Part shown: positions 9,135 to 63,411 of the stretch, one piece after another
Layout of the letters: the number at the start of each line of letters is the position of its first letter
Position numbering within the stretch: the first letter of the stretch is position 1
From: Rothia aerolata
GTDB taxonomy: Bacteria; Actinomycetota; Actinomycetes; Actinomycetales; Micrococcaceae
Assembly (NCBI RefSeq): GCF_014635585.1
Contig: NZ_BMDC01000001.1
Location: 782,139 to 846,138 of the forward strand
Length of the DNA stretch: 64,000 nt
Direction: 5' to 3'
The notes under the pieces: generated by a model
Seen by the model: only the letters and a program-made list of their open reading frames with translations
Database searches by the model: none
What the model was told of the DNA's origin: nothing
Position numbers and translations under genes: made by a program

Positions 9135-9204
9135 GAGGTGCGCCGCCCCGACCAACTGGCATCGGGGCTGGCGTTTAAGGGAGGTTGGGCGGGCGGCGCG
9201 CCTC
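9135..9204 (-). repeat. Conserved-loop hairpin, copy 1 (downstream of tyrA)
   Basis: Arms of 21-22 nt (GAGGTGCGCCGCCCCG plus ACCAAC on the plus strand) pair with 9184-9204 apart from a bulge and few mismatches. The 27 nt loop, read on the minus strand, contains CCCTTAAACGCCAGCCCCGA followed by TGCCA, identical to the loop at 63363-63389. It begins 32 bases past the tyrA stop codon, in the same orientation as the gene. Confidence 0.85.
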
Positions 9205-9235
9205 AGCGCCTACATTGCGTTTGTTCTCAGCCTCT

Positions 9236-10405
9236 CTATCGAACGACCTTCCAGCCTGCGCTGGTCAGATCAGCCTTGAGTTTGTCGTGTTCGTTGGGGT
9301 TGACAGCTATTTCCACCATACCCACCGGCTGCCCCGGTGAGTGTTCCATGCGGAGGTCTTCGAGGTTGACTCCCAGCTCTCCGATTTCGGTGAGCAGGCG
9401 GGCAATCTGGCCCGGGGTGTCGTCTACCAGCACGGTCATGTGGGCAAAAGCCGCCGGGGCACCGCCGTGTTTACCGGGGATTCTTGCCACGCCGGCATTG
9501 CCCTCGCTCATGAGCTGGGCGATGTCTAGGCGGGCACCGGCTGCGGTGGGGTCTTCCAGGGTTGCGATCAACCGTTCCAAATCTTCGCGCACCCCGTAGA
9601 GGGTCTGTACCACCGGCTGGGCGTTGGCCGCAAGAATCTGTACCCACAGGGAGGGGTCGCTTCCGGCAATCCGCACGGTATCGCGCAGGCCCTGCCCCGC
9701 CAGTCCCAGGGCATAGAGCGGGGTCTCCTGCAGGCGGGAGGCCAGCAGGGAGCTCATTACCTGGGGCACATGGGAAATCAGCGCCACGGTTCTGTCGTGC
9801 TCTTCCACTGTCAAATAGGTGATGGTGGACCCCAGCTCCACGCCCAGGGTCTGAGCGAGCTTGACCGAGTCTTTGCGGGCAAGCTCATGCTCACAAATCA
9901 CAAAGGGGCGGGAGGTAAACAGCTCGCCGCTGGCGGCCACCGGCCCCGACTTTTCGCGACCCGCCATGGGGTGGGTACCCACATAGCGGGAGGCATCGGC
10001 ACCAGAGGCCAGCACCTGAGACAGAATCGGTGCCTTGACCGAGGCAATATCAATCACCGTTGCGGTGGGCCAGGCACGGAGCTGGTCAATCACCACCTCG
10101 GCGGTAACGTCCGGCGGAGGGGCCGCGACCACCAGCTGCGGCTCGGCAGGCAGCAGGGCGGCGGCGTCCACGGTCGAAGAACCGGCAGCAGCGGCTAAAG
10201 CGCGCAGGGAAAGCCCCGCGCCAATATCCTGCGCCACCGCCTCAACCGTGGGTGAGACGTCGGAGAGATAGACCGGCACACCCTGGGCCCTCAGGGCAAG
10301 CCCCACCGAGGCACCCAGCAGGCCCGCGCCGATGATGAGCACCGGCCCCTCAACCGCCGAGGTGTTCTCCTCTGGGCGGGGTTGCATGGAAAGGTAGTTA
10401 TCCAT
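9236..10405 (-). CDS. tyrA: Prephenate dehydrogenase with C-terminal ACT domain
   Basis: Oxidatively decarboxylates prephenate to 4-hydroxyphenylpyruvate in tyrosine synthesis. The 389 residues show an N-terminal Rossmann fold with VLIIGAGLLGASVGLALRA (from about residue 22), the prephenate-site stretch GTHPMAGREKSG, and a helical dimerisation region with LISHVPQVMSSLLA. From about residue 315 there is an ACT domain (MTVLVDDTPGQIARLLTEIG), which usually gives tyrosine feedback inhibition. It starts 9 bases after the rluB stop codon, within the scpA-scpB-rluB-tyrA transcript. Confidence 0.95.
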   Translation of the reverse strand: MDNYLSMQPRPEENTSAVEGPVLIIGAGLLGASVGLALRAQGVPVYLSDVSPTVEAVAQDIGAGLSLRALAAAAGSSTVDAAALLPAEPQLVVAAPPPDVTAEVVIDQLRAWPTATVIDIASVKAPILSQVLASGADASRYVGTHPMAGREKSGPVAASGELFTSRPFVICEHELARKDSVKLAQTLGVELGSTITYLTVEEHDRTVALISHVPQVMSSLLASRLQETPLYALGLAGQGLRDTVRIAGSDPSLWVQILAANAQPVVQTLYGVREDLERLIATLEDPTAAGARLDIAQLMSEGNAGVARIPGKHGGAPAAFAHMTVLVDDTPGQIARLLTEIGELGVNLEDLRMEHSPGQPVGMVEIAVNPNEHDKLKADLTSAGWKVVR

Positions 10406-10414
10406 TCTCAGCCC

Positions 10415-11422
10415 TTACATATCAACGGAGGCCAGCAGCTCACCAATCTCAACCTTAGACAGGTTGCGAATCGTGCCCTGCTTCTGAGAGCCAATGCGAA
10501 TGGGGCCCATCTCCACGCGCACCAGCTTCTCCACCGGGTAGCCCACGGCATCAAAGAGACGGCGCACAATGCGGTTGCGACCGGAATGGATCGACACCTC
10601 AATCAGCACGTGACCGGGGGTGGAGTCCACCAGCTTGAAGGAATCCAGGCGGGCAGTGCCGTCTTCAAGACGGATGCCCCGCTTCAGCTCCTCGCCCACG
10701 CCGGAGGCCACCGGGCCGCGCACCTGCACCAGGTAGGTCTTGGGAACCTCATAGGAGGGGTGGGTCAGCCGGTTAGCCAGCTCGCCGTCATTGGTCAAAA
10801 GCAGCAGGCCCTCGGTCTCCACATCCAGGCGGCCCACATGGAAAACGCGATGGTTGAAGGAATCACGCAGGAAGTCCTTAATGCAGGGGCGGCCCTCAGG
10901 ATCTTCCATAGTCGAGACCACGCCGGCAGGCTTGTTAAAGGCCATGTAGATGTACTTCTCATCGGTCTGAATCGAGATACCGTCTACGCGCACCACCACC
11001 TTCTCGGGGTTCACGCGCACACCCAGCTCGGTCACAACCTGGTCATTGACGGTCACGCGACCCTCTTCAATCATCTGCTCGCACACCCGGCGCGAGGCTA
11101 CACCTGCGCCCGCCATGAGCTTCTGCAGGCGCACGCCGTCATGATCGTAAAAATCGTAGTGGTCTACGGGGTCAGCCTGGGGACGGCGCGGACGGTGCGG
11201 CCCGGCGTAGTTGGGGTTCTTTCCGCGGTGAGGACGCCGCTCGCCGAACTCATTGGCGAAAGGCTGGCCCGAACGGAAACGGGGGCCCTTGCCGGTGCCT
11301 GCCTTGCGGGGGCCGCCTGGCTGGCCGGGGCGGGCACCCTTGTTAGATGCCTTGCCCGCACCGGGCTTTCCCGCTTTACCGGCGCCACCGCGGCCGTGGT
11401 TACCTGAACGTCCCTGTGCCAT
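10415..11422 (-). CDS. rluB: 23S rRNA pseudouridine synthase, RluB/RsuA family
   Basis: Isomerises a 23S rRNA uridine to pseudouridine. The 335-residue product has about 85 residues of basic, Gly/Pro/Lys-rich low-complexity sequence, then an S4 RNA-binding domain (VRLQKLMAGAGVASRRVCEQ) and the catalytic domain with GRLDVETEGLLLLTNDG, which holds the catalytic aspartate. The C-terminal IHSGRNRIVRRLFDAVG is the other family hallmark. The disordered extension is usual in actinobacterial RluB proteins. It sits between scpB and tyrA. The symbol rests on neighbourhood and family, since the exact target base is not visible. Confidence 0.92.
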   Translation of the reverse strand: MAQGRSGNHGRGGAGKAGKPGAGKASNKGARPGQPGGPRKAGTGKGPRFRSGQPFANEFGERRPHRGKNPNYAGPHRPRRPQADPVDHYDFYDHDGVRLQKLMAGAGVASRRVCEQMIEEGRVTVNDQVVTELGVRVNPEKVVVRVDGISIQTDEKYIYMAFNKPAGVVSTMEDPEGRPCIKDFLRDSFNHRVFHVGRLDVETEGLLLLTNDGELANRLTHPSYEVPKTYLVQVRGPVASGVGEELKRGIRLEDGTARLDSFKLVDSTPGHVLIEVSIHSGRNRIVRRLFDAVGYPVEKLVRVEMGPIRIGSQKQGTIRNLSKVEIGELLASVDM

Positions 11423-11461
11423 GTTTGACTCCTTTACTCGTCTTCTATTTCTTCTTCTCGT

Positions 11462-12265
11462 TTAGGGATTCTCGCCGCTGAGCTCTATATCGCCCACATC
11501 CGGCAAGAAAGGTGCCAGGGGCGGAAGATCGTCCAAAGAATCCAGCCCCATCTTTTCTAGGAAAAAATCTGTGGTGATGTACTGGGCCGCTCCCGTTTCG
11601 GGGTCGGGCACCGTCTGGTCAATCAGCCCCCGCTGTTGCAGGGTGCGAAAGGCCGCATCGGCGTTGACGCCGCGCACGCTGGCCACGTAGCTTCGGGTCA
11701 CCGGCTGCTGATAGGCAATCACGCTCAGCGTTTCCATCACCGCCTTGGGTAGTTTCTTCGCGGTGGATCCCACCACGAACCTACCCACCCAGGGACTAAA
11801 GTCAGACCTGGCGTAGAGGCGCCAGCCCCCGGCGATTCGGCGCAACTCAAAGCCCCGGGGCTCGTGCACCGTCTCACCGTCGTCATACCCGTTGTAGTCG
11901 CGGTAGAGCTCGTCCAGGGCGGCCTCGACGGTAGGCTCGGAAACAATCAGAGCCGCCGAGAGCTCGCGGGCACTTACCGGCTGGTCCGCCACCGCCAGAA
12001 TCGCCTCTACTGCCGCCTTCACACCGCCGGGTTGCAGCTCAACCCTGGAAATAACGGTCTCAGCAGCAACCTGCCGATGCCCCTTATTCTGCTGGGTTTG
12101 GGCGTACTGTTCAGCCTCTGCGGGCTCCGACCAGGGGTTCTCCGGCGCCGTAGGCTCTTCTGCTTCAACAGTGTCTTCAGCTTCCTCAGCTCCCCAGGAG
12201 CCCGAGAGCAGAATCGCCAGGTCATCATCGGTAAAATCGGGATTTTCTCCGGTAATGTCACTCAT
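11462..12265 (-). CDS. scpB: Segregation and condensation protein B
   Basis: Kleisin-interacting winged-helix subunit of the SMC-ScpAB condensin. The 267-residue protein has an acidic, poorly conserved N-terminal region of about 80 residues, then the two winged-helix domains with VEAILAVADQPVSARELSAAL and METLSVIAYQQPVTRSYVASVRGVN, both diagnostic. Its start overlaps the end of scpA by eight bases, so the two are translationally coupled. The smc gene is not in the window. Confidence 0.95.
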   Translation of the reverse strand: MSDITGENPDFTDDDLAILLSGSWGAEEAEDTVEAEEPTAPENPWSEPAEAEQYAQTQQNKGHRQVAAETVISRVELQPGGVKAAVEAILAVADQPVSARELSAALIVSEPTVEAALDELYRDYNGYDDGETVHEPRGFELRRIAGGWRLYARSDFSPWVGRFVVGSTAKKLPKAVMETLSVIAYQQPVTRSYVASVRGVNADAAFRTLQQRGLIDQTVPDPETGAAQYITTDFFLEKMGLDSLDDLPPLAPFLPDVGDIELSGENP

Positions 12266-13139
12266 GCTCCACCTCCTGGTCGGTCTGCACTTCGGGTGCT
12301 GGTTCTTCCGCCAGTGTAAGGGTAATTTCTCCCAGGGGATCTGCCTGAACAGCCTGCACGCTCTTGCGGCGCACCAGTTCCAGCACCGCTAAAAAGCGAA
12401 CCACGGCAATTTCAAACTCCCCCGCACCCTTCACCAACTCAGCAAAGGTATGCTCCCGCTGATCGTTGAGACAGGAAAGCAGAAACCTCTCTTCCGCCTC
12501 AATCGAGGTCAGCGGCTCCCGCAGGTGCCCCAGGCTCAGGCGCTCGCCCTCCGCGGCGTCGTCCTCAAAATGAGACTTGCTCAGGGCAACCGCTGCAATC
12601 TGCGCGAACTCCTGCGCCCCGATATCAAATACCAGCTCGGGCAAAACCTTCTTGAACTGCGGTTCCAGCGCAACCTTGCGGGGAAAACGCTGGGCCTCGC
12701 GTTGGAAACGGGTCTGAAGCACCGCAGAAACCTCGCGGTAGGCCCGATACTGTAACAGGCGGGCAAAAAGCAGGTCGCGGGCTTCGAGCAGGGCAAGGTC
12801 TTCTTCAGTCTCAACCGTGCCCCGGGGCAAAAGTCGCGCCGCTTTGAGATCAAGCAGGGTTGCTGCGGTAACCAGAAAATCGCTGGCCTGGTTCAGGGCC
12901 TCAGAGGTGCCCCGGTCATAGAGAGCTGAAATGTAGCTCATGAACTCATCGGTGACCTCGGCAAGCGCTACCTCGGTGATGTCCAGCTTGCGGCGGGCGA
13001 TGAGGGAAAGTAAAAGATCAAAGGGACCCTCAAAATTAGTCAGGGTCAGAGTAAAGCCGGCAGAATCAGCGGCTTGGTCAGCAGGCGCATCGTCGATGTG
13101 CGCGGAATCTAAATCATGGGTGTGTGTCGGTGCCCTCAC
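12258..13139 (-). CDS. scpA: Segregation and condensation protein A
   Basis: Kleisin subunit that bridges the SMC heads. The 293-residue protein has FTLTLTNFEGPFDLLLSLI near residue 28, the classic ScpA opening, then RKLDITEVALAEVTDEFMSYI, and a C-terminal winged helix with VVRFLAVLELVRRKSV. The start is GTG with AAAGG ten bases upstream; about 27 variable residues precede the conserved region. It overlaps scpB by eight bases. In related genomes parA usually adjoins scpA; here a toxin-antitoxin pair lies between. Confidence 0.95.
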   Translation of the reverse strand: MRAPTHTHDLDSAHIDDAPADQAADSAGFTLTLTNFEGPFDLLLSLIARRKLDITEVALAEVTDEFMSYISALYDRGTSEALNQASDFLVTAATLLDLKAARLLPRGTVETEEDLALLEARDLLFARLLQYRAYREVSAVLQTRFQREAQRFPRKVALEPQFKKVLPELVFDIGAQEFAQIAAVALSKSHFEDDAAEGERLSLGHLREPLTSIEAEERFLLSCLNDQREHTFAELVKGAGEFEIAVVRFLAVLELVRRKSVQAVQADPLGEITLTLAEEPAPEVQTDQEVEHE

Positions 13140-13296
13140 GGCAGCGTACCTTTTCGTTCGTGCGTAGGTCTCTACGGCGATTCAGACCGGCTCCTTGCCG
13201 GCTCCTTTAAATTTTGCCGCATTGCCCGCGCCACTTCAAGGGTCGGGCGCGGTTATATCGCCCACGTGGAAAATATATGGAGGGGCTCCATCTAGA
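13140..13296. other. Spacer between relE and scpA
   Basis: 157 bases. It must hold the scpA promoter if the toxin-antitoxin pair ends its own transcript. A short GC hairpin (GGCTCCTTGCCGGCTCC region, 13189-13205) is visible. I find no convincing -35/-10 pair. Confidence 0.4.
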
Positions 13297-13554
13297 TTAT
13301 CGGTATACCTCACGTCGATGAGCAGCTCTCACTACGCTAACCACCAGCTCTGCATCAAAAATATCGTAGATAACCCTGTATTGCCCCACCTTAATGCGCC
13401 AGGCGGTTTGATGCCCTACCAGTTTGGTCGAATGATAAGGTCGGGGGTCTTCTGATAATCCCTCAAGCATAAAAATAATTTGTTCCTGCACAGACCGCGG
13501 CAATTTTCGTATTTGCTTTTTCGCAGGATTAGTCAGTACTACCGTATAGCTCAT
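13297..13554 (-). CDS. relE: RelE-family mRNA interferase toxin
   Basis: Small basic protein of 85 residues with the RelE/ParE fold: YTVVLTNPAKKQIRKLPRSVQ at the N-terminus, then the KLVGHQTAWRIKVGQYRVIYDI core whose arginines and tyrosine match ribosome-dependent RelE nucleases, and the VVSVVRAAHRREVY C-terminus. The start overlaps the antitoxin stop by four bases. It is likely to cleave translated mRNA when freed from its antitoxin. The pair is visibly more AT-rich than its neighbours and interrupts the parA-scpA order, suggesting transfer. Confidence 0.92.
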   Translation of the reverse strand: MSYTVVLTNPAKKQIRKLPRSVQEQIIFMLEGLSEDPRPYHSTKLVGHQTAWRIKVGQYRVIYDIFDAELVVSVVRAAHRREVYR

Positions 13555-13814
13555 AAACCAAGCTCAGCTTTAAAATCCTGAAGAATAGTACGTTCGCCGT
13601 CGTCCTCGGCCTGAGCTTCTTCATACGCCAAAGAATCTTGTTGAAGCTCATACGCCTCTAAAGCTTCTAAATCTTCGACGCTCACCAGAACTGCGGTGAG
13701 CTTTCCATTTCTAGTAATTCCGATACGTTCATTACCATATTTTGCACGACTTAGCACATCAGAAAGATCGCCCCTGAGCTCACGAGTAGAAACGGTATTT
13801 GTAAGAGTAGCCAT
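13551..13814 (-). CDS. yefM: Phd/YefM-family antitoxin
   Basis: Predicted 87 residues from the ATG at 13814: MATLTNTVSTRELRGDLSDVL, a Phd/YefM DNA-binding N-terminus, followed by RAKYGNERIGITRNGKLTAVLVSVEDLEALE and an acidic C-terminus that would wrap the toxin. The frame stays open to a TTG at 13850 with AGGAAA upstream, but that would make the two palindromic operators coding. The choice between the two is open. It is co-transcribed with relE with a four-base overlap. Confidence 0.88.
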   Translation of the reverse strand: MATLTNTVSTRELRGDLSDVLSRAKYGNERIGITRNGKLTAVLVSVEDLEALEAYELQQDSLAYEEAQAEDDGERTILQDFKAELGL

Positions 13815-13842
13815 GTCTACATTGTAGACATTGTGTACACAA
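13814..13842. promoter_or_regulatory. Two palindromes, probable toxin-antitoxin autoregulatory operator
   Basis: TGTCTAC-ATT-GTAGACA (13814-13830) is directly followed by the perfect 12 bp palindrome TTGTGTACACAA (13831-13842). Both abut the antitoxin ATG. Phd/YefM dimers typically bind such sites and repress their own operon. Confidence 0.65.
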
Positions 13843-13894
13843 TTCAACAAGACACCATTTCCTGTAGCCCAGGGGCGGAAAAGTTTCCTACGTC

Positions 13895-14758
13895 TTAGGG
13901 CGCTCCCCCACGACTAATGAGCTCGCGCGCCAGCTGGCGGTAGGCCTCGGCACCGGGGTGGTTAGAGGCGTAGGAGAGAATGGGCTCTGCTGAGACGGTG
14001 GCGTCGGGGAACTTCACGGTGCGCTTGATCACCGTATCGAAGACCTTATCGCCGAAGGCATCGATAATACGCGCCAGTACTTCCTTAGAGTGCAGGGTGC
14101 GGGAGTCAAACATGGTGGCTAGCACGCCGTCAATCTGCAGCTTGGGGTTTAGGCGGTCTTGTACCTTCTCAATGGAGTCCACCAGCAGGGCCACCGCTCG
14201 CAGGGCAAAGAACTCGCAGATGAGCGGAATAATGACGCCGTGGCTGGCGGTCAGCGCGTTGACGGTCAGCAGACCCAGGGAGGGCTGGCAGTCAATCAAA
14301 ATGACGTCGTACTCGTGCTCAACCTTGCGCAGGGCAGAGGCGAGCACCTGCTCACGGGCTACCTCATTGACCAGCTGCACCTCGGCGGCCGAAAGATCAA
14401 TGTTAGCGGGTAGCAGGTCGATGTTTTCGGTTTCGGTGGGCTGAATGACCTCGTGAATATCGACCTTGCGGTCCATCATCACGTTATAAACGGTGAGGTC
14501 AAGCTCATGGGGGTTGGCACCAAAGCCTGCCGAGAGAGCACCCTGGGGGTCAAAATCTACCAGTAGCACCTTGCGGCCGCACTCTGCCAGGGCAGCGCCC
14601 AGGTTAATGGTGGAGGTGGTTTTACCCACGCCACCCTTCTGGTTCACCATGGAGATAATGCGGGCGGGGCCGTGGGTCTGTAGCGGCGCAGGGTCGGGGT
14701 AGGTCACCAGCGGGCGACCTGTGGGGCCAAGCTGCTGTTCGTTAGGAGACTGAGTCAC
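13895..14758 (-). CDS. parA: ParA/Soj-family chromosome-partitioning ATPase
   Basis: Deviant Walker ATPase of 287 residues. About 30 variable residues precede IISMVNQKGGVGKTTSTINLG (deviant Walker A), LLVDFDPQGALSAGFG follows, and VILIDCQPSLGLLTVNAL is the Walker B region. The start is GTG with AGGTGA upstream. This copy sits with scpAB rather than beside parB near oriC, so it is the ParA paralogue commonly found at the scpA locus in actinobacteria; its role there is not settled. Parsing as a MinD-like protein is less likely. Confidence 0.9.
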   Translation of the reverse strand: MTQSPNEQQLGPTGRPLVTYPDPAPLQTHGPARIISMVNQKGGVGKTTSTINLGAALAECGRKVLLVDFDPQGALSAGFGANPHELDLTVYNVMMDRKVDIHEVIQPTETENIDLLPANIDLSAAEVQLVNEVAREQVLASALRKVEHEYDVILIDCQPSLGLLTVNALTASHGVIIPLICEFFALRAVALLVDSIEKVQDRLNPKLQIDGVLATMFDSRTLHSKEVLARIIDAFGDKVFDTVIKRTVKFPDATVSAEPILSYASNHPGAEAYRQLARELISRGGAP

Positions 14759-14840
14759 TCACTTCACCTATTCACTAGCGGAAAAAATTAACTCTGTCTA
14801 CTAGAGTACAGTGCCGGGGCAAATTGGCCGCGTCACTACG

Positions 14841-14897
14841 CGAGTGGTGGATTTTAGGCTTAATTTTCGTGAAAAAGAGCCTAAAATCCACCACTCG
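14841..14897 (-). terminator. Long perfect hairpin downstream of prpE
   Basis: Perfect 20 bp arms (CGAGTGGTGGATTTTAGGCT) and a 17 nt loop, starting 12 bases beyond the prpE stop codon. No strong U tract follows. It belongs to the set of long hairpins with locus-specific arms. Confidence 0.75.
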
Positions 14898-14908
14898 GCA
14901 AAACAGAA

Positions 14909-16831: not shown

Positions 16832-16912
16832 CTCTTCTCTCCTTGCCTGTTTCATGAGTGAATGAGCGAGATTGAAAGCAAATCTAGTGGTGAGAATCAC
16901 AATAATCAATAC

Positions 16913-16985
16913 TTTGTATACATAAAATCCAAAAAATTTCTTAAAGCCGTCTTTTTTCAAGAAAATTTTTGATTTTTGTATACAT
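16913..16985. promoter_or_regulatory. Paired TTTGTATACAT boxes between prpE and prpR
   Basis: Two identical copies of TTTGTATACAT, at 16913-16923 and 16975-16985, each containing the palindrome TGTATACA. They lie about 80 bases upstream of prpE and about 60 upstream of prpR. Palindromes of this kind suit a dimeric GntR protein, and PrpR next door is the likely ligand. The surrounding 130 bases are very AT-rich. Confidence 0.65.
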
Positions 16986-17046
16986 TGAGGCTTTTACCCT
17001 CTACAGTGGTGTGCAACACAGATCGTGGGAAGCAAGAGAGGTAGAG

Positions 17047-17718: not shown

Positions 17719-17722
17719 GAAG

Positions 17723-20151: not shown

Positions 20152-20178
20152 CACTTTTTGATTCAAAGGAGAATCACC

Positions 20179-21318: not shown

Positions 21319-21329
21319 GGGAACTCCCC

Positions 21330-22022: not shown

Positions 22023-22044
22023 ACACCTATTTTAGGGGTCAGCC

Positions 22045-27741: not shown

Positions 27742-27777
27742 GCTCCGCTAGTTCCTTTCTCTCACTCGCACCTGTTC

Positions 27778-27834
27778 CGAGAGGCCATTTTTAGACCGTT
27801 TTTCTCAACTTTTCGGTCTAAAAATGGCCTCTCG
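27778..27834 (+). terminator. Long perfect hairpin downstream of the NRAMP-like gene
   Basis: Perfect 21 bp arms (CGAGAGGCCATTTTTAGACC plus G) with a 15 nt loop, followed by GCGTTTT. It starts 37 bases after the stop codon. Part of its sequence recurs at 29529-29552. Confidence 0.8.
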
Positions 27835-27955
27835 GCGTTTTACTGGCGCTAGAAGTAAAAGCTCAGTTTCCAGCACGTAAATGATCGCAGAATCTATTTA
27901 TTTTTTTGGCCGCCTTTCACTAAAGTAAAAGTAATCTAAATCACAGAGGAGGGTT

Positions 27956-29571: not shown

Positions 29572-29626
29572 AAAGTTGCAGTTTTGGTTCTTATTCGGCG
29601 GTTTTAAGAACCAAAATTGCAACTTT
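29572..29626 (+). terminator. Long hairpin downstream of formamidase
   Basis: Arms of 22 bp with one mismatch (AAAGTTGCAGTTTTGGTTCT plus TA), loop of 11 nt, starting 44 bases past the fmdA stop. It is followed by ATTTATG. It probably serves both fmdA and the opposing tRNA transcript. Confidence 0.75.
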
Positions 29627-29841: not shown

Positions 29842-29911
29842 AAAAGAAGTGTCGTTCAGTCAACCGGCACCGGATCGTGCCTTTAAAGGATGACCGAACG
29901 ACACTTCTTTT
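29842..29911 (-). terminator. Long hairpin downstream of the UPF0182 gene
   Basis: Arms of 21 bp with one G-T mismatch (AAAAGAAGTGTCGTTCAGTC plus A), enclosing a 28 nt loop that itself holds a small GGCAC/GTGCC hairpin. It begins 28 bases past the stop codon and ends in T-rich sequence on the minus strand. Confidence 0.75.
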
Positions 29912-48333: not shown

Positions 48334-48354
48334 CTTTCAGTTCCAAGGATTACC

Positions 48355-49704: not shown

Positions 49705-49705
49705 A

Positions 49706-49779
49706 CCGCGAGGGGTCACATATCATTCACAATTTGCCCTAAAACAGGGATTTTTTGAACGATATGTGACCCCTCGCGG
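49706..49779. terminator. Long hairpin between convergent thrE and hemL
   Basis: Perfect 19 bp arms (CCGCGAGGGGTCACATATC) around a 36 nt loop that holds its own CCCT/AGGG hairpin and a T run. It begins two bases after the thrE stop and ends 14 bases from the hemL stop, so it probably ends both transcripts. Confidence 0.8.
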
Positions 49780-49793
49780 GTAGGGAGGCAGAA

Positions 49794-51119: not shown

Positions 51120-51133
51120 GGAGAGTTCCTTTC

Positions 51134-52132: not shown

Positions 52133-52178
52133 GATTGCTCCTTTGCATGGTTTGAAAGTCTAAATATGGTTGTTGAGC

Positions 52179-52249
52179 GGCGGTAAGCCCCGTCACCCAA
52201 CAACCCTTAACGCCAGCCCCGAGCCAGTTGGGTGCCGGGACTTACCGCC
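52179..52249 (+). repeat. Conserved-loop hairpin, copy 2 (hemD-hemB gap)
   Basis: Arms of 23 bp with two mismatches (GGCGGTAAGCCCCGTCACCC plus AAC), loop of 25 nt containing ACCCTTAACGCCAGCCCCGA then GCCA. This shorter loop class is shared with copy 4. It is oriented opposite to the haem genes and lies back to back with copy 3. Confidence 0.85.
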
Positions 52250-52270
52250 TTCTCTCCGTTTAGGAACTGG

Positions 52271-52346
52271 GTGGAGGGGTCGCTCCCCCGGTCAACTGGC
52301 ATCGGGTCTGGCGTTTGAGGGAGGTTGACCGGGGAGCGGCCCCTCC
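52271..52346 (-). repeat. Conserved-loop hairpin, copy 3 (overlaps the hemD end)
   Basis: Arms of 23-26 nt (GGAGGGGTCGCTCCCCC and its complement) with one bulge and one mismatch. The 27 nt loop on the minus strand contains CCCTCAAACGCCAGACCCGA. The closing pair CCAAC/GTTGG of the other copies is here TCAAC/GTTGA, a compensatory change. The hemD stop codon sits in the far arm. Confidence 0.85.
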
Positions 52347-53134
52347 GCCGAAGGGCTCCTAAGCTGCTCATACAGCGCGCGGGCCAAGTCACCCGGCCCC
52401 GGCGAGGCAGAGACGCCCACCCGCAATCCCAGTTCCCGGGCGGTGGCGGCAGTGGTGGCACCGATGGCCACCACGGGCGGTAGGGTGTGCGGTGGCAGCC
52501 CTGCCACCAGTTTTTTTAGTAAGGACGGCGCGGTAGCAGCTATCGCCGTGTAGTCGGTCAGGTGCCGCCTGGCTTCTTCCAGGGAGAGCGCTACCGTTCC
52601 AGCTGGCTGTTCTTCTGCTACCAGCGGAGAGTCTGCCGGGTAATCTGCCATGTCATAGACCACAGCGGTTGCAACCTGTGCTCCCCGAGCCCGGAGATCC
52701 CTCACCAGGTGGGGTCTGGCGGTGGCTCCCAGAATACTCACCACGGTCTTTGTCTCTGCCAGGGGAAGTTCCCGAGCCAGGTGGGCGGCGTCGGAGACAG
52801 AGGGCTGAAAGTCCACGGCGACCCCGTGCCGAGCTAAAGCATCAGCGGTAGCCGATCCCACGCTGGCTACCTTCGCCGGGGCAAGCAGCCGCACCAGCGT
52901 CGTCCCCCTTGATTCAGCCCAGCAGGCCAAACCCGCAACGCCATTGGCGGAGGAAAAAGTAACCCAGGCAGCGGCGAAGTCCGCCGGTTCGATCTCCTGT
53001 GGTGCTAGATAAACCGCTTGCTGAAGCGGGGCGCAGTCCACCTTTGCATCCGGCAGTAGAGTCAGGAGCTCCCCCACCAGGGCCTGTGCCTTGGTGGGGG
53101 ATCTCGTCACCAGAAACCTGGGGGCAGAAGTCAC
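52292..53134 (-). CDS. hemD: Uroporphyrinogen-III synthase
   Basis: Closes and inverts ring D of hydroxymethylbilane. The family is weakly conserved; support comes from 280 residues of the two-domain HemD pattern (WVTFSSANGVAGLACWAES, KVASVGSATADALARHGVAVDF, PPVVAIGATTAATARELGLRVG) and from its place after hemC, whose TAG overlaps the hemD GTG. The last 17 codons (ending PPSNARPDAS) are encoded by the conserved-loop hairpin, so the C-terminus seems to have been replaced or extended by the repeat. Confidence 0.9.
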   Translation of the reverse strand: MTSAPRFLVTRSPTKAQALVGELLTLLPDAKVDCAPLQQAVYLAPQEIEPADFAAAWVTFSSANGVAGLACWAESRGTTLVRLLAPAKVASVGSATADALARHGVAVDFQPSVSDAAHLARELPLAETKTVVSILGATARPHLVRDLRARGAQVATAVVYDMADYPADSPLVAEEQPAGTVALSLEEARRHLTDYTAIAATAPSLLKKLVAGLPPHTLPPVVAIGATTAATARELGLRVGVSASPGPGDLARALYEQLRSPSAEGPLPGQPPSNARPDAS

Positions 53135-56227: not shown

Positions 56228-56314
56228 GATCTAGTCCTTTCCTCGCCCGTCGTCTGCGGCGGGCAGTCTGTTGGAATCTTGTGTGGGTAAAAATTATTCG
56301 GTTCTCAGGTGGTC

Positions 56315-56383
56315 GTGCGGAATGCGGACGGCCAACACCCTTAAACGCCAGCCCCGAGCCAGTTGGCTGCCCGCACTCCGCAC
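56315..56383 (+). repeat. Conserved-loop hairpin, copy 4 (hemY-hemQ gap)
   Basis: Arms of 22 bp with three transition mismatches (GTGCGGAATGCGGACGGCC plus AAC), loop of 25 nt with CCCTTAAACGCCAGCCCCGA then GCCA. Opposite in orientation to the haem genes; it lies 17 bases past the hemY stop. Confidence 0.85.
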
Positions 56384-56400
56384 TCCCCCCTGGAGTCACG

Positions 56401-57930
56401 CTAATTCTGCGGTTCCTCGAAGGCTTCCACCGGAGTACCGTCTGCCAGTTCTGCTTTCTCCGCGGCCGCCGATCTCTCCGCTGCGCCTCGCTGCTGGGAG
56501 ATGAAGGTTTGAAGGGTCTCCCTGGTATCGCGGGTCACCGCCGCCAGACCGGTACCTGCAACCCAGGCACCCACCGCCGTCACGCCGTCCAGGTTCTTCA
56601 ACCCCTCGCGGAAGGCCGCGGTCTTCTCGCGGTGGCCGGGGCTCGCGGTGGGCACCGCCGAAGACCAGCGCACCACGTCTGCGCCCACCAGGTGGGACTT
56701 GGTCAGTGAGACGTCAAAGAGCTTGGAGGCATCGTGCAGGGCCAGGGTAATCAGCTGGTCGTCGTAGAGGTTGACCTCCTGCAGCGGGCCCGAGTCGGTG
56801 CCGCGGCCGTACGACAGGCGCACCACGTGGCGGTTTTCGCCGGCCCGCTCCCTCACCCAGGCCCACTTGGCGCTGGCGTGGGTCATGGCCTTGGCGCGAA
56901 CGGTCTGCACCTCTTCGCTCACCAGCAGGCCGGTGCCCCTGGGGTTGGAGTTGAGGGCGGGCTGGTCTACCACCAGGGTCACCAGGGCAATCTCGGGGCT
57001 GGAAGCTACACTGGGTGCCAGCCCGGCGGGCATGTGCGGGCCCAGCAGCCGCGCCGCCGTCGCGCCGTCCGACGCCATCACCAGATACTTACCGGAAATC
57101 GCCGCCGCCTTCTCGCCTGCCTCGGGCTGGCGCTGAATCAGGGTCCAGTCGTGGGTGATGGGGTCACGGTCGATAGCAATGGCGTCAAAACCGGTAAGGA
57201 TACGCACGCGCTTGCGCCGAAGGTCATCCACCAGGGCTTCAGAGAGAACATTCATACCGCCCTCGATACCGCTCACCTGGGCTCCCGCCGGAGAAGCCTG
57301 GCGCAGGGTGGCAGAGGCCGCAGCCAGCGACCCCAGCTGGGCAATTTTTTGCTTGAGGGTGGGGGCAATCGTTGCCAGCTCCAGCTGGTTGGGGTGCATG
57401 GAGTGAACGCCCGAAACCACCGGTGCCACCAGGCGGTCGAGCACCTCCTGGCCCATGCGCACCCGCACCAGATCGCCCAGGGTTTTGGCGTTCTCACCGG
57501 CTGAGGCGGGCAGCAGCCGGTCGAGCTTGGCCCGGCGCATGCCCTTGCGGGTGAGGATGTTCTTCACCGAGGGGTCGCGCAAATCTCCGGGAATACCGAG
57601 AATACCGGTGCGCGGTGCCGGGGCTGCTCCCTCGGGCAGGTAGAGCCAGGAACCGGAAGAATTGGGAGAAACAATCTTGTCTGCCAGCCCCAGTTCCTCC
57701 AGCAGGTTAGCGACGTCCTGGGTACGGGTGGCAAAGGCTTCAGCGCCGGAGTCAAGTACCAGACCGGCAACCCTGTGGGCACCCACCGAACCGCCCAGAT
57801 GGTCCCGTTTTTCCACCAGCGTAACTTTGACGCCGGCTGTTGCCAGCTCGCGGGCTGCGAGAAGACCAGCAATGCCACCACCAATCACAATGGCGGTTTC
57901 TTTCGGTAAGCGCTGCCGAGATGGTGCCAT
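56401..57930 (-). CDS. hemY: Coproporphyrinogen III oxidase (CgoX, HemY type)
   Basis: FAD enzyme that oxidises coproporphyrinogen III to coproporphyrin III. The predicted 509 residues begin with the dinucleotide fold TAIVIGGGIAGLLAARELATAG, then LVEKRDHLGGSVGAHRVAGLVLDSGAEAF, and near the end VTAVGAWVAGTGLAAVTRDTRE. ATG 57930 has AAAGGAACC upstream and is eight bases after the hemE stop; the in-frame ATG at 57969 lies within hemE. By its Gram-positive context this is the coproporphyrinogen, not protoporphyrinogen, oxidase. Confidence 0.95.
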   Translation of the reverse strand: MAPSRQRLPKETAIVIGGGIAGLLAARELATAGVKVTLVEKRDHLGGSVGAHRVAGLVLDSGAEAFATRTQDVANLLEELGLADKIVSPNSSGSWLYLPEGAAPAPRTGILGIPGDLRDPSVKNILTRKGMRRAKLDRLLPASAGENAKTLGDLVRVRMGQEVLDRLVAPVVSGVHSMHPNQLELATIAPTLKQKIAQLGSLAAASATLRQASPAGAQVSGIEGGMNVLSEALVDDLRRKRVRILTGFDAIAIDRDPITHDWTLIQRQPEAGEKAAAISGKYLVMASDGATAARLLGPHMPAGLAPSVASSPEIALVTLVVDQPALNSNPRGTGLLVSEEVQTVRAKAMTHASAKWAWVRERAGENRHVVRLSYGRGTDSGPLQEVNLYDDQLITLALHDASKLFDVSLTKSHLVGADVVRWSSAVPTASPGHREKTAAFREGLKNLDGVTAVGAWVAGTGLAAVTRDTRETLQTFISQQRGAAERSAAAEKAELADGTPVEAFEEPQN

Positions 57931-57937
57931 GGTTCCT

Positions 57938-59050
57938 TTACTTTCGGGTAGAGGTGTGGATGTATTCAACCAGATCTGTCAAAACCGTGGGGTCGGTGCT
58001 CGGCGGCACGCCGTGGCCCAGGTTGACCACGTGGGTGGGCGCAGCGTTGCCGGCTTCGAGTACCCGGTCGGTATGGGCAAAGAGCGCGGTGCGACCTGCC
58101 GCCAGCAGGGCGGGGTCGATGTTGCCCTGTAGAGGGACGCCGCCGCCCAGGCGACGTTCTGCTTCGTCGAGGGGCAGGCGGTAGTCCACGCCCATGACGT
58201 CGGCACCCGCCTCGTGCATGGCGGGCAGCAGTTCTGCGGTTCCGGTGCCAAAGTGGATGCGGGGTACACCGTATTTTTCTACCTGCTGCAGGGCAAAGGC
58301 TGAATGCTTCATGACAAAGCGGCGGTAGTCAGCCTCGCCCAGGGAGCCGGCCCAGGAGTCAAAGAGCTGCACGGCAGAGGCACCCGCCTCCACCTGGGCC
58401 GCCAGGAACTGGGCGGAAGTACGGGCTGCCCAGCGTCCCAGGGCCTCCCAAGCCTCGGGGTCAGCATGCATCATGGTGCGCGGACGCAGGTGGTCGCGGG
58501 AGGGGCCGCCCTCCACCATGTAGGCGGCCACGGTAAAGGGAGCGCCCGCGAAGCCAATCAGCGGGGTGTCTCCCAGTTCCGCCACGGTCAGCGCCACCGC
58601 CTCGCGGATGGGGTCGAGAGCCGAATCTTCGAGTTCGGGCAGGGCGGCGACGTCCTCGAGAGTGCGCACCGGCGCCCCCAGCACGGGGCCACGGCCGGGC
58701 ACGATGTCTACATCGACACCGGCCAGCTTCATGGGAATAACAATGTCTGAGAAGAAAATGGCGGCGTCTACTTTATGACGGCGCACCGGCTGTAAGGTAA
58801 TCTCTGCCGCCAGCTGAGGAGTCAGGCAGGATTCCAGCATGCCAATGCCCTCGCGAGCCGCCCGGTACTCGGGCAGGGAGCGACCAGCCTGGCGCATAAA
58901 CCAGACCGGGCGGTGCTGCGGCTGGCGGCCGGTCAGGGCCTTAAGCATGGGAGAATCGGCAACGCCTGTGCTGTGAAGAGGGTGCTCACCGGAAAGGTGA
59001 GAAAGTTGCTCATCGGTGAGGAGGGGGCGTTGCTTCAGCGATTCAGTCAT
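57938..59050 (-). CDS. hemE: Uroporphyrinogen III decarboxylase
   Basis: Produces coproporphyrinogen III. The 370-residue enzyme has the signature RPVWFMRQAGRSLPEYRAAREG, FSDIVIPMKLAGVDVDIVPG with its aspartate, GFAGAPFTVAAYMVEGGPS and FGTGTAELLPAMHEAGADVMGVDYRLPL. It is the first gene of the leftward haem operon. GGAAG lies close before the ATG. The 157 bases to hemA hold both promoters. Confidence 0.97.
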   Translation of the reverse strand: MTESLKQRPLLTDEQLSHLSGEHPLHSTGVADSPMLKALTGRQPQHRPVWFMRQAGRSLPEYRAAREGIGMLESCLTPQLAAEITLQPVRRHKVDAAIFFSDIVIPMKLAGVDVDIVPGRGPVLGAPVRTLEDVAALPELEDSALDPIREAVALTVAELGDTPLIGFAGAPFTVAAYMVEGGPSRDHLRPRTMMHADPEAWEALGRWAARTSAQFLAAQVEAGASAVQLFDSWAGSLGEADYRRFVMKHSAFALQQVEKYGVPRIHFGTGTAELLPAMHEAGADVMGVDYRLPLDEAERRLGGGVPLQGNIDPALLAAGRTALFAHTDRVLEAGNAAPTHVVNLGHGVPPSTDPTVLTDLVEYIHTSTRK

Positions 59051-59207
59051 TCTTCCATTGTGCCAAGAAAATAATGATTTTTTGCCGACACTGTGTCACT
59101 ACACTTTTGGTCAGCCAGCAAGAGTTTCACTCTTTAAAGTACACCCCGTTACATTTTTTCTAGACCATTAGCATTTTGGTGTTTTAAGTGTTTATGATGA
59201 ATCAGTC
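59051..59207. promoter_or_regulatory. Divergent hemE/hemA promoter region
   Basis: 157 AT-rich bases. Rightward, TATGAT (59193-59198) ends nine bases before the hemA GTG. A short inverted repeat GAGTTTCACTC and AT-rich CTTTAAAGT lie near 59125. No Shine-Dalgarno precedes hemA. I cannot assign the leftward -35/-10 with confidence. Confidence 0.45.
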
Positions 59208-60515
59208 GTGACTATCTTTACCCTTGTTGCATCACACCAGCTTGTAGACCTCTCCACCGTCGCCCATCTGGCGGACGGTGCGCAAGTGCTATCTGAGCGA
59301 CTGACCCCTTCGCCGTTGAAGGGGCTGGTGGTTCTCTCCACCTGCAACCGTCTGGAAATGTACGCGGAAATTCCGCACACCGCCGGGTCTACCGCCGAAA
59401 CTATTCAGGCCGAGGTTAATTCCACCGCCGAGCGTATTTTTGACGACCTAGCGACCGAGTCAGGGCTGGATCGAGAGACCGTTTCTTCTAGCTTTGAGGT
59501 GCTCATTAACGAAAACGCCTCCCACCACCTCTTCACCGTTGCTTCCGGGCTTGAATCTGCCGTGGTCGGCGAGCGCGAAATTACCGGCCAGGTGCGCCGG
59601 GCTATCACCGCCGCCCAGGAGACCGACCAGGCAACCGGCAACCTGGTGCGCCTCTTTGACCGGGCGGCCCACACCGCCCGCCAGGTGGGTCAGCAGACCC
59701 TACTGGGATCGCGAGGACGGTCGGTGGTGTCGGTGGCGCTTGATCTTGCCGATGACGTCGCTGAGGGCGACTGGACCTCCCGCCGCGTGCTGATTTTCGG
59801 TACTGGCGCCTACGCCGGTGCCACGGTTGCCGCGCTGAAAGAGCGCGGCTGCACCGATATCTGGGTGCATTCTTCTTCAGGCCGCGCAGCTACTTTTGCT
59901 GACAAGCGCGGTATCTCCCCCATCTCCGCCGAGAATCTCAAGGAAGAGATTGGAAAGGCTGACCTTGTGGTGGGTTGCTCCGGCTCGGGTAGCCCCCTGC
60001 CGGCATCCTCTATTCCCTCAGGAAAGCACGTTATTTTAGACCTGGCGCTCTCCCGCGATTTCGACCCCGAGGTGGCAGATTTACCCGGTGTGGAGCTGAT
60101 TACCCTTGAGTCGGTGCGCCTTGCCGCCCCGGCCGAGACTAACGATTCGGTGGCACTTGCCCGCACAATTGTGGACACCGCATCGGCAGAATTTGCCGTT
60201 CAAGAGAAGGCTCGCAACATCGATGCTGCTATTGTTGCTCTCAGGAAGCATACAATGAGCGTACTTGACACCGAGCTGGAGAAAATGCGAAAGCAGCACG
60301 CCTGTAGCGGAGCTGCCGACCAGGTGGAACTGGCTATGCGCCGTATGGTGAAGTCCCTTCTTCACACCCCCACTACTCGAGCTCGCGCCCTGGCCAAGGA
60401 AGGACGGGCAGATGAGTATATTTCAGGCCTCGAAGCTCTCTACGGCATCGAGGTAGAACCTCCTGTTTCTCAGCCTGTCTCTGAAGAGCAATTCAGAGCG
60501 GCGGATGCCTCCTAA
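59208..60515 (+). CDS. hemA: Glutamyl-tRNA reductase
   Basis: First enzyme of the C5 pathway, reducing glutamyl-tRNA to the semialdehyde used by HemL. The 435 residues show the catalytic cysteine in VLSTCNRLEMYAE, EREITGQVRRAI, RGRSVVSVALDLADD, the NADPH-binding GTGAYAGATVAALK and the C-terminal dimerisation helix. GTG start without a visible ribosome site; a TATGAT box nearby suggests a very short or absent leader. It opens the rightward unit; the TetR gene begins 40 bases after its stop. Confidence 0.96.
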   Translation: MTIFTLVASHQLVDLSTVAHLADGAQVLSERLTPSPLKGLVVLSTCNRLEMYAEIPHTAGSTAETIQAEVNSTAERIFDDLATESGLDRETVSSSFEVLINENASHHLFTVASGLESAVVGEREITGQVRRAITAAQETDQATGNLVRLFDRAAHTARQVGQQTLLGSRGRSVVSVALDLADDVAEGDWTSRRVLIFGTGAYAGATVAALKERGCTDIWVHSSSGRAATFADKRGISPISAENLKEEIGKADLVVGCSGSGSPLPASSIPSGKHVILDLALSRDFDPEVADLPGVELITLESVRLAAPAETNDSVALARTIVDTASAEFAVQEKARNIDAAIVALRKHTMSVLDTELEKMRKQHACSGAADQVELAMRRMVKSLLHTPTTRARALAKEGRADEYISGLEALYGIEVEPPVSQPVSEEQFRAADAS

Positions 60516-60555
60516 AGTAACCACACATCCCCTTCTGAAGGCAAGGTAGTAATTA

Positions 60556-61191
60556 GTGACAGCCGAATTCCAAGCAGCTTCTGATAGCACCGGGCAGATT
60601 CGGTTGCCCCGCCAGCTCCGCCGCCAGCAGCTGGTTTATTCGGCCCTTCGGGTTTTTTCCAACCAGGGTTACCACGTAACCACCATGAACCACATAGCTT
60701 CGGCAGCCGACGTCACCAAGCCGGTACTCTACCAGCACTTCAAATCTAAGCGGGATCTCTACCTGGCGGTTCTGGACGAACAGATTGACGAGATGGTCAA
60801 GCAAGTGGTTACTCCCCTCTATGCCACAGAGTCTAACCGGGCCCGGGTTGAGGGCGCCCTCGGTGCTTTCTTTGAATTTTGCCGCACCTGCCCTCAGAGC
60901 TACCGGTTGATTTTTGAGTCTGATATTCAGTCGGATATTGGTGTTCAGGATCGCCTGAACCGGCTCCACCACAAGATTGCCGAGCATATTGCGGGGATTC
61001 TCGGTCCCAACGCGGGGCTGGGCCACGCCGAGGCGGTTCTGCTCTCCCGCTCCCTGACCGGCATGGTAATCTCAGCCACCGAACAGGCTATTAAGAACGG
61101 AGCTAGCGCCGACGAGCTGGCCCAGGTGGAGCGGTTGGTTTTCCGCTTGGCCTGGGGAGGAATCTCCATCATCGATGAGGACTGGCAGTAG
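60556..61191 (+). CDS. TetR-family regulator
   Basis: A 211-residue regulator whose N-terminal helix-turn-helix, residues 23-70, reads ALRVFSNQGYHVTTMNHIASAADVTKPVLYQHFKSKRDLYLAVLDEQ. The helical C-terminal domain has CPQSYRLIFESD. The same TetR gene beside DUF3107 and a DEAD-box helicase is conserved in actinobacteria (mycobacterial Rv3208 region). GTG start with a distant AAGG. The ligand and targets are unknown. Confidence 0.88.
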   Translation: MTAEFQAASDSTGQIRLPRQLRRQQLVYSALRVFSNQGYHVTTMNHIASAADVTKPVLYQHFKSKRDLYLAVLDEQIDEMVKQVVTPLYATESNRARVEGALGAFFEFCRTCPQSYRLIFESDIQSDIGVQDRLNRLHHKIAEHIAGILGPNAGLGHAEAVLLSRSLTGMVISATEQAIKNGASADELAQVERLVFRLAWGGISIIDEDWQ

Positions 61192-61296
61192 CTACTCCCC
61201 TGACTTGTGCGCTAAGAGTGATATTTGGTTTCGGCGAGCAGAGTCGCCCCTAGAATAGGGCTGAGAGAAGATTGATTATCTATTCAAGGAGTAACC

Positions 61297-61524
61297 GTGG
61301 AAATCAAGATTGGTGTACAGAACATCCAGCGTGAAATCGTTATTGAGACCGATGCAACCTCGGCAGATGTCAAGGCTAAGGTAGCTGATGCCCTGGCCAA
61401 CGGCACCGTGCTGGAACTTGAAGACTCCAAGGGTAACGTCACCCTGGTTCCCGGCCAGCAGGTAGGCTACGTAGAACTGGGCGCAGAGTCCAAGCGCCGC
61501 ATCGGCTTCGGCTTCGCGGAATAA
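61297..61524 (+). CDS. DUF3107 small protein
   Basis: A 75-residue protein typical of actinobacterial DUF3107 (mycobacterial TB9.4-like): VEIKIGVQNIQREIVIETDATSADVKAKVADALANG, ending in RRIGFGF. GTG start with AAGGAG six bases upstream. A TAGAAT box at 61252-61257 may be its -10. It is followed by a strong hairpin terminator. The function is unknown. Confidence 0.88.
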   Translation: MEIKIGVQNIQREIVIETDATSADVKAKVADALANGTVLELEDSKGNVTLVPGQQVGYVELGAESKRRIGFGFAE

Positions 61525-61546
61525 GTTTTCACAGCTCTATTGCTTC

Positions 61547-61611
61547 AGCGTGGTGCTGCTCCCCCAGCCCTGTATCAGGGCTACTGGGGTAGCGATACCA
61601 CGCTTTAGTTT
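61547..61611 (+). terminator. Imperfect long hairpin terminator after the DUF3107 gene
   Basis: About 25 bp imperfect stem (AGCGTGGT outer, CCCCCAGCCCT inner) with loop GTATC, followed by TTAGTTT. It starts 22 bases past the stop codon. Confidence 0.75.
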
Positions 61612-61789
61612 GCCCTCATTTGATAGACTGACACCGTTACCTATGGTTGCCCGGTCGTAACGAGCAAACAGAACCTTTAATTTATTAGCACCGCGCCCTG
61701 GTTGGGTTGGTCGGCGCAGTTATTTCACGATCGGCTCCTTCACCCGCTTTACCCGCTTGCGGGAAAGCCCCTACATCTAGGATTCTTTC
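61612..61789 (+). other. Long leader region of the DEAD-box helicase gene
   Basis: 178 bases without a reading frame of note, after the DUF3107 terminator. A weak promoter may lie at 61612-61630 (TAGACT at 61625-61630). If so, the mRNA would carry a leader of about 150 nt, with a small CCCGC/GCGGG hairpin near 61755. No known riboswitch class is recognised. Confidence 0.4.
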
Positions 61790-63316
61790 GTGACAGAAGA
61801 CAAGAAAACTTTCCAAGACTACGGCGTGCGAGAAGACATCGCGGCTGCCCTGGCCGAAAAGGGTATCACCCACCCCTTCCCCATCCAGGCGCTGACCCTG
61901 CCCGTAGCTCTTGAGGGCCACGATATTATTGGCCAGGCAAAGACCGGTACCGGTAAGACCTTAGGCTTTGGCCTGCCCGCTATCCAGCGCGTGGTTGGCC
62001 GCGATGACGAGGGCTGGGAGAAGCTCAAGTCGCCGGGCGCCCCCCAGGCGCTGATCGTCGTCCCCACCCGCGAACTGGCTATCCAGGTGGGCTCCGACCT
62101 TGAGGCTGCCGCAGCCCAGCGCAACGCCCGCATCGTAACCCTCTACGGCGGCGTCCCCTACGAACCCCAGGTCAAGAAGCTCGACCGGGGCGCCGAAATC
62201 ATTGTGGGCACCCCCGGCCGCCTGATTGACCTGCACGGGCAGAAGAAGCTGGTTCTCTCCCAGGTCAAGATCGTAGTGCTCGATGAGGCAGACGAGATGC
62301 TGGATCTGGGCTTCTTGCCCGATGTGGAGAAGCTGCTCTCCTACCTGCCCGAGATTCGCCAGACCATGCTCTTCTCGGCCACCATGCCCGGGCCCGTGAC
62401 TACCATGGCCCGCCGCTACATGAACCGGCCCATGAACATTCAGGCCTCCACTCCCGAAGAGCTGGAGATGAAGACCAAGGCCTCAATTCGCCAGGTCATC
62501 TACCGTGCCCACCCGCTGGATAAGGACGAGCTGGTGGCGCGTATCCTGCGCGCTCGGGGCCGGGGCCGCACCATTATTTTCTCGGAGACCAAGCGCTCGG
62601 CAGCCAAGCTGGCCGAAGAGCTCAACTCCCGCGGTTTTGCCGCCGCAGCCCTGCACGGTGACCTCAACCAGGGCGCCCGCGAGCAGGCTCTCAAGGCTTT
62701 CCGTGATGACACCGTAGACGTGCTGGTGGCAACCGACGTGGCCGCCCGCGGTATCGACGTTGAAGACGTCACCCACGTCATTAACCTCCAGTGCCCCAAG
62801 GACGAAAAGGCCTACCTGCACCGCGTGGGCCGCACCGGCCGCGCCCAGGCTAAGGGCACCGCTGTCACCCTGGTGGACTGGGAGGACGTTCCCCGCTGGT
62901 CGCTCATTAACAAGGCGCTGGAGCTGGGCGTGCCCGAGCCGGTAGAGACCTACTCTTCTTCGGAGCACCTCTACGCCGATTTGGACATTCCCGCCGGGGC
63001 CAAGGGCCGCCTGCCCAAGGAGGAGCAGACCCGCACCGGCCTGGACCAGTCAGGCCAGGGTCGAAGCCCCCGCGGTGGCAGGGACGGCGCCGGTTCCGGC
63101 CGCGGAGGTCGCGGTGGCCGGTCAGGTTCGGGTAATAGTCGAGGACGCCGCCGCTCGGGTGAGCAGGGCGAGAAGAAGCACAGCCAGCGCGCTGAGAAGC
63201 CTCATAACGAAAAACCCAGGGCAGAGCGGGAGAAGTCGGTGGAGAAGACCGCGGACGGCGCCCGCCGTCGGCGTCGCCGCCGTAAGCCTGCGGCTGAGGG
63301 CAAGAAGGAATCCTAG
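61790..63316 (+). CDS. DEAD-box ATP-dependent RNA helicase
   Basis: The 508-residue RNA helicase has Q motif FQDYGVREDI and FPIQ, motif I AKTGTGKTLGF, Ia PTRELAIQV, Ib TPGRLIDL, II DEADEMLDLGF, III SAT, and VI HRVGRTGRAQA, followed by about 110 residues rich in Arg, Gly and Lys (GRGGRGGRSGSGN), an RNA-binding disordered tail. It is closest in form to the RhlE/Rv3211 class. GTG start. It is followed by a conserved-loop hairpin and a second perfect hairpin. Roles in cold adaptation or RNA turnover are family expectations. Confidence 0.94.
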   Translation: MTEDKKTFQDYGVREDIAAALAEKGITHPFPIQALTLPVALEGHDIIGQAKTGTGKTLGFGLPAIQRVVGRDDEGWEKLKSPGAPQALIVVPTRELAIQVGSDLEAAAAQRNARIVTLYGGVPYEPQVKKLDRGAEIIVGTPGRLIDLHGQKKLVLSQVKIVVLDEADEMLDLGFLPDVEKLLSYLPEIRQTMLFSATMPGPVTTMARRYMNRPMNIQASTPEELEMKTKASIRQVIYRAHPLDKDELVARILRARGRGRTIIFSETKRSAAKLAEELNSRGFAAAALHGDLNQGAREQALKAFRDDTVDVLVATDVAARGIDVEDVTHVINLQCPKDEKAYLHRVGRTGRAQAKGTAVTLVDWEDVPRWSLINKALELGVPEPVETYSSSEHLYADLDIPAGAKGRLPKEEQTRTGLDQSGQGRSPRGGRDGAGSGRGGRGGRSGSGNSRGRRRSGEQGEKKHSQRAEKPHNEKPRAEREKSVEKTADGARRRRRRRKPAAEGKKES

Positions 63317-63340
63317 AGTTCTTTCTCAGAGGCATCTATC

Positions 63341-63411
63341 CAGTCTGAGAGTGCTGGCCAACCTCCCTTAAACGCCAGCCCCGATGCCAGTTGGCCAGCA
63401 CTCTCAGACTG
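63341..63411 (+). repeat. Conserved-loop hairpin, copy 5 (after the DEAD-box gene)
   Basis: Perfect 22 bp arms (CAGTCTGAGAGTGCTGGCCA plus AC) and a 27 nt loop containing CCCTTAAACGCCAGCCCCGA then TGCCA, identical to copy 1. It begins 24 bases beyond the stop codon, in gene orientation. Confidence 0.9.

Follow-up and report, generated by a model that had tools for sequence, protein, structure and literature searches.

Correia/NEMIS, ERIC, RUP and RPE, the MITEs covered by the pertinent passages of PMC2229807, share with the Rothia hairpins described here a size of ~100–200 bp, an intergenic location and the capacity to fold back. The pneumococcal BOX, RUP and SPRITE repeats are likewise small intergenic stem-loops, SPRITE being terminator-like (PMC10969869, in its description of these repeats). 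A different line of work concerns how hairpins arise: template switching is reported to homogenise the arms of inverted repeats and to invert the spacer between them (PMC8604942, in the portion dealing with inverted repeats), and to both generate hairpin stems and preserve them by a single event (PMC8794818, in the portion dealing with hairpins). Within the open-licence PMC literature, we found no description of the Rothia repeat family itself.

The window, by which we mean the whole 64,000-nucleotide stretch of Rothia aerolata DNA that was analysed, belongs to a genome of 2.46 Mb (G000, with contigs C1, C2, C3, C4 and C5), in which genes were called with our own codon-usage scorer. It contains the following hairpins:

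9135..9204, minus strand: copy 1, 27-nt loop, in the gap between prephenate dehydrogenase and cmk; the C-rich loop is sense to both genes
52179..52249, plus strand: copy 2, 25-nt loop, in the hemD/hemB gap, antisense to the genes
52271..52346, minus strand: copy 3, 27-nt loop with two substitutions, overlapping the 3′ end of the hemD reading frame
56315..56383, plus strand: copy 4, 25-nt loop, in the hemG/hemQ gap, antisense to the genes
63341..63411, plus strand: copy 5, 27-nt loop, downstream of an RNA helicase gene
29847..29906, minus strand: copy 6, divergent, with loop TCCTTTAAAGGCACGATCCGGTGCCGGT (R1 E value 9.8e-6)

Copies 1–5 had been proposed in a first-pass annotation of this DNA, and all were confirmed, including by an independent hairpin scan, as was their division into a 27-nt loop class (copies 1, 3, and 5) and a 25-nt class (copies 2 and 4); copy 6 is absent from that annotation. 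The covariance model R1, comprising an 18-bp stem plus the loop and trained on 21 copies, recovered all five within the window at E values of 1.2e-19 to 6.7e-15, which are not independent, since training drew on the window copies or on their loci. In RNA folding, copy 5 had a z-score of −9.5 and copy 2 one of −5.5. Rfam searches returned two tRNAs and nothing else from the window, and no family above its gathering score from ten loci spanning all loop classes. Copy 3 supplies most of the last ~20 codons of hemD (frame end at 52292–52361), and since the frame terminates within it, ~22 C-terminal residues are without counterpart in relatives. The hemD-hemB junction had no hairpin reaching a score of 9 in 18 of 18 relatives compared, and the hemG-hemQ junction no family hairpin in 19 relatives compared. 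It follows that either this lineage acquired copies 2, 3, and 4 or every one of those relatives lost them.

Across the whole of G000, R1 identified 54 copies at an E value of 6e-6 or better (67 rows at E 0.1). Their 27-nt loop has a mean identity of 97.1%, whereas identity over the outer 13 nt of the stems is 37% (32% when shuffled). We aligned 21 copies, chosen by us among the exact-core matches plus copy 3, and found changes on both sides in 17 of 18 stem pairs. As proposed earlier, each stem pairs with itself despite its differing sequence: 354 of 374 cells were paired, whereas shuffling reduced pairing to 58.7% and sliding the partner to 40.6% or less. Only 3 of these cells were G-U, versus 20 mismatched; when all 54 were paired without gaps, starting from the outside and including bulged copies, there were 22 G-U and 107 mismatched cells out of 972. 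Single linkage of the 54 stems gave groups of 10, 4, and 4, one pair, and 34 singletons. The idea that the stems are unrelated between copies thus holds for most of them, as the singletons indicate, and fails for the 18 that fall into the three groups, which look mutually related and include the stem of copy 5; conservation of stems between copies elsewhere, on the absence of which the first-pass annotation had staked its reading, does occur to this extent. Nor is the loop-closing CCAAC/GTTGG that it described fixed genome-wide, as CGAC/GTCG, GCACG/CGTGC, and others are present. Its expectation that the loop seldom occurs without arms was borne out, with hairpins at all 40 of the 43 long-core matches that were listed. 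Among 30 loci inspected for the exact 12-mer, one (L010) was without arms and seems to match by chance; allowing up to one mismatch, the 12-mer pattern gave 115 matches and its reversed control 26.

The short loop is one form of a larger element. A long-loop pattern matched 39 times in G000 (reversed control, 5), and 20 of 30 such loci inspected read arm-CTCCCTTAAACGC...CCCGATGCCA-arm, with a loop of ~82 nt as counted by eye. The conserved core of the larger form consists of TCCCTCTC, a helix (P2), and GATTCACGCCAGCCCCGA(T)GCCAG, and is enclosed by an outer stem, P1. In class 2, both P1 and P2 covary, with double changes at 11 of 15 pairs and 92.4% pairing. In the short loop, the 5′ portion of the long class is joined to the 3′ portion of class 2, without P2. 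Searches with R2, a covariance model of class 2 whose counts may take in some short-loop copies, gave matches in at least 20 of 35 Rothia genomes and, weakly (E 3.8e-4), in at least 1 of 114 genomes outside the genus. A deeper R2 search covered 12 genomes with 150 candidates scored; among the matches listed, there were 2 to 65 per genome, the richest having at least 65, 53, 51, 50, 45, and 40. R1 matched in 17 of the 35 Rothia genomes, and the loop pattern in 13 of the 35 and in 1 of 64 genomes outside the genus, there in apparently coding sequence. Of 21 named stretches that carry the loop pattern, 19 are from Rothia, and the viral contigs searched for the loop gave 0 matches. The hairpins are, in short, a large family of small, partly mobile repeats in Rothia.

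Several further observations were made along the way. The loop pattern was also noted in two MAG contigs, one of Akkermansia and one of Hyphomicrobiales (L063 and L075), where contamination or chance may explain it. At L245 and at the L368 locus of G028, another repeat, GCCGAGATTTATTTTCCTCGCGCGCTCGGAATCTCGG, is nested in the class 2 P2 loop. The 3′ arm plus half of the loop is repeated in tandem at L039:1513-1647 and L049:1499-1659 (2.8 and 3.1 times, with periods of 49 and 53); these repeats lie after the hairpin and were seen as duplications. A 45-bp tandem repeat akin to the long-loop sequence is found at the ends of C1 (from 1379220 on) and C4 (15-119). Another palindromic family, with GTACA...TGTAC ends and varied middles, occurs in the window at 4056-4115, 5173-5238, and 63441-63496, and elsewhere in G000 at C1:288447, C1:866273, and C3:189557; its stems also differ yet pair. 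Finally, repeated long perfect hairpins in which the stems are conserved and the loops differ are located at 27777-27835 and 29572-29626 of the window, and in G000 at C1:267826, C4:252689, C5:18557, and C2:62753.

Comparison of orthologous loci in the R. nasimurium group revealed how individual copies change. At the L350 locus, G020 carries a whole element after the stop codon and eight other genomes are without it; similar presence and absence of whole elements was seen at the L371 locus and between G033 and G032. One member has been swapped for another at the c3 site, where five genomes have a short element and five a class 2 element next to a piece of flanking gene that is 97.5–100% identical. 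The centre has been lost at L356, L373, and c4, and at some loci both arms are altered together between sister species. At four loci, the core aligns between species only as its reverse complement (74/79, 78/79, 74/76, and 78/79 identities), with the flanks in forward orientation. The arms are common to the species at L370 and L373, where inversion in place is the simplest reading, and partly different at L368 and L382, so that separate insertions are possible there. A fifth reversal was noted, by eye only, at L354 between G005 and both G002 and G014. The proposal that the loop stays while the stems differ is supported. Likewise, the earlier suggestion of an element copying the sequence beside it is close to what the sister species display, with arms altered together at some loci, and cores reversed in place fit it too.

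These loci also bear on the possibility that terminator hairpins were there first and that the loop, as a tiny mobile element in its own right, entered their apex. Beside genes, the genome has further long, perfect hairpins whose loops are unrelated (43 of 83 in 329 kb sampled around the family), and at L373 and c4 a stem common to sister species contains the core in some and not in others. However, the core-less versions retain remnants of the element, as if they had arisen by deletion, and whole elements come and go with their stems, both of which disfavour the idea; the hem junctions of relatives, moreover, have no pre-existing hairpin. We regard insertion of the loop alone as very unlikely.

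The core differs less than its surroundings. In seven orthologous groups, picked after seeing the data, there were 27 differences in 1764 loop positions, 48 in 1155 arm positions, and 88 in 2266 positions of the 5′ flank, so that the loop rate is about one-third of that of the arms or flank (loop vs. arms, Fisher p 2e-5, for sequences that are not independent). The exception among the seven is the class 2 group at c3, whose loop is more variable than its arms. Four groups (both at L356, the reverse group at L370, and the forward group at L373) were omitted, since distinct elements or states are mixed in them; with all eleven, the counts are 89/3144, 116/1950, and 171/3611, respectively. The lower rate suggests that the core is under some constraint; the arms show no conservation of this kind. 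The stem cells of the eleven groups comprised 89 unpaired, 23 G-U, 12 double, and 786 unchanged cells. Most changes between orthologs thus break pairs, which implies that stems decay in the short term and that homogenisation is not frequent everywhere; it also makes plain drift an unlikely source of the perfect, unrelated stems in G000, which look newly made or mended. An ordinary MITE, with a stem diversity that reflects old drift of one ancestor and no special process acting on the arms, would be in keeping with the three groups of related stems (18 of 54) and with the terminal repeats and target duplications described below. Yet the 34 singleton stems pair almost perfectly while orthologous stems gather unpaired changes, and cores have been inverted in place, and we consider this simpler account decidedly unlikely.

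With respect to gene context, 18 of the G000 copies are in convergent, 29 in codirectional, and 5 in divergent regions, and 2 are inside genes; in G030, none of 22 copies is divergent (22 of 23 R1 matches placed). Among the codirectional copies scanned, 12 of 20 begin no more than ~30 nt past a stop codon. The orientation split by loop class proposed in the first-pass annotation survives as a tendency and not as a rule: sense and antisense copies with codirectional neighbours number 12:4 in class A and 4:9 in class B (Fisher p 0.027). The stems are G+C-rich, as an intrinsic terminator would need, and the following T-tract is weak, with 2.1 T per 10 nt after codirectional copies (n = 20) versus 3.7 after other long G000 hairpins (n = 15). 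T-tracts may be absent from terminators in Actinobacteria. The hairpins are candidates for a role in transcript ends.

It might be argued that the hairpins act at the level of RNA, as 3′-UTR stem-loops for termination, processing, or stability with a loop that a protein or RNA reads and stems that drift under selection for pairing. Iron-responsive elements are a precedent for such drift. The strong covariation of P1, P2, and the short-loop stem would fit with this explanation, as would the position of most copies beside gene 3′ ends in G000 and G030, the closeness of the codirectional copies to stop codons, and the fewer differences in loops than in arms at orthologous loci. On the other hand, divergent regions are not clearly avoided in G000 (5/52 copies vs. 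15.8% of intergenic bases, p 0.26), the T content is low compared to other long hairpins, G-U intermediates are rare in G000 stems, orthologous sites carry a reversed core, and the hem hairpins are missing in 18 relatives. On balance, an RNA-level function as the cause of the pattern seems somewhat unlikely.

Mobility can be traced through the ends of the elements. Inverted repeats of the GAGGCTTATTCA type enclose some copies in several Rothia genomes, and such ends are found both on elements of 123–183 bp and on insertion sequences of 902–904 bp. The 904-bp insertion sequence in G030 (R. terrae) has a transposase frame broken by stops, and its 902-bp relatives on R. amarae and R. terrae plasmids have intact genes. 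Their terminal repeats are perfect over 16–17 bp, and the transposase has HTH_Tnp_4 and DDE_Tnp_4 domains. An exact 3-bp target duplication flanks 12 of 40 candidate end-pairs, a set that includes false pairs and many without duplication; shifting by 1–3 positions gave 0, 2, and 0. The 12 comprise 3 plasmid insertion sequences and 9 small elements at 8 sites. As short, long, and class 2 cores are each found inside GAGGCTTATTCA-type ends (L111, L222, and L383), all three belong to one family with a MITE subset. The subset with these ends is a MITE of the IS5-like element. No terminal repeats were seen at window copies 1–4; copy 5 is flanked by degenerate, MITE-like GAGGCTTATTCA-type ends.

Other mobile systems were considered. 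Many-copy intergenic palindromes call to mind REP sequences mobilised by a RAYT (Y1) transposase. The corresponding domain, PF01797, was found in 3 of 35 Rothia genomes, none of them G000 or G030, the two genomes richest in short-loop copies, which makes this identity exceedingly improbable for the family; the PF01797 search found no Y1 transposase in G000 and rules it out for that genome. We also set aside integron attC sites, given that the copies sit between core genes such as hem and that the conserved part is the centre and not the base.

We therefore favour, with a probability of roughly 55%, a Rothia-specific foldback MITE-like family in which a subset is mobilised by an IS5-like element and the arms are rewritten by template switching or recombination. 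Copies that keep the GAGGCTTATTCA repeats would be moved whole by the IS5-like transposase, leaving 3-bp duplications, as seen for the subset. Once inserted, the two arms would constitute an inverted repeat, between which template switching in replication, or recombination, could copy one arm onto the other. Such switching may extend the inverted repeat into local sequence and at times invert the core, an outcome that we observed even though its mechanism is deduced. Stems would then differ by locus and yet pair, and the core would escape the rewriting. Movement of the subset and inversion of cores are observed; copying between arms is what we infer, and template switching would account for the locus-specific pairing stems, the scarcity of G-U pairs, and the reversed cores.

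The conserved core points to a putative binding partner. It is conceivable, although we think it unlikely, that the hairpin is a self-rewriting, flipping element, in which the core is the recognition site of a putative factor and the arms are scaffolding remade in place, giving locus-specific 3′-UTR hairpins that switch orientation. If so, core inversion would be a slow genetic switch acting on transcript ends. More generally, covariation is usually counted as proof of selected RNA structure. Here, a mobile DNA repeat combines strong covariation with in-place inversion of its core, as expected if arm copying produces pairing without selection, and the Rothia family would then be a caution for surveys of RNA motifs. 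Its dozens of copies in each genome, and the many close species, could also serve to measure how often template switching makes, mends, and inverts bacterial hairpins.

Compared with known systems, the insertion sequence shares with the IS5 family a DDE transposase, short perfect terminal repeats, and 3-bp duplications, although its transposase scores 69.9 and 69.5 bits with NCBIfam IS5 models, below the curated cut-off of 140. The hairpins share with bacterial MITEs an origin from an insertion sequence and, in a subset, terminal repeats and target duplications; unlike the MITEs covered by the pertinent passages of PMC2229807, they have a conserved centre and variable stems, and their core is reversed in place between species. 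They are set apart from BOX, RUP and SPRITE, as portrayed in the same part of PMC10969869, by having no strong T-tract, the comparison being one of descriptions and not of sequences. What they have in common with template-switch hairpins, as treated in the portions of PMC8794818 and PMC8604942 cited above, is perfect stems, which in Rothia would result from arm copying, and inversion of the spacer. The spacer inversions published for yeast in a coding study, according to those same portions (PMC8794818; PMC8604942), span 2–5 bp, whereas the Rothia cores are ~80 bp long and belong to a mobile family.
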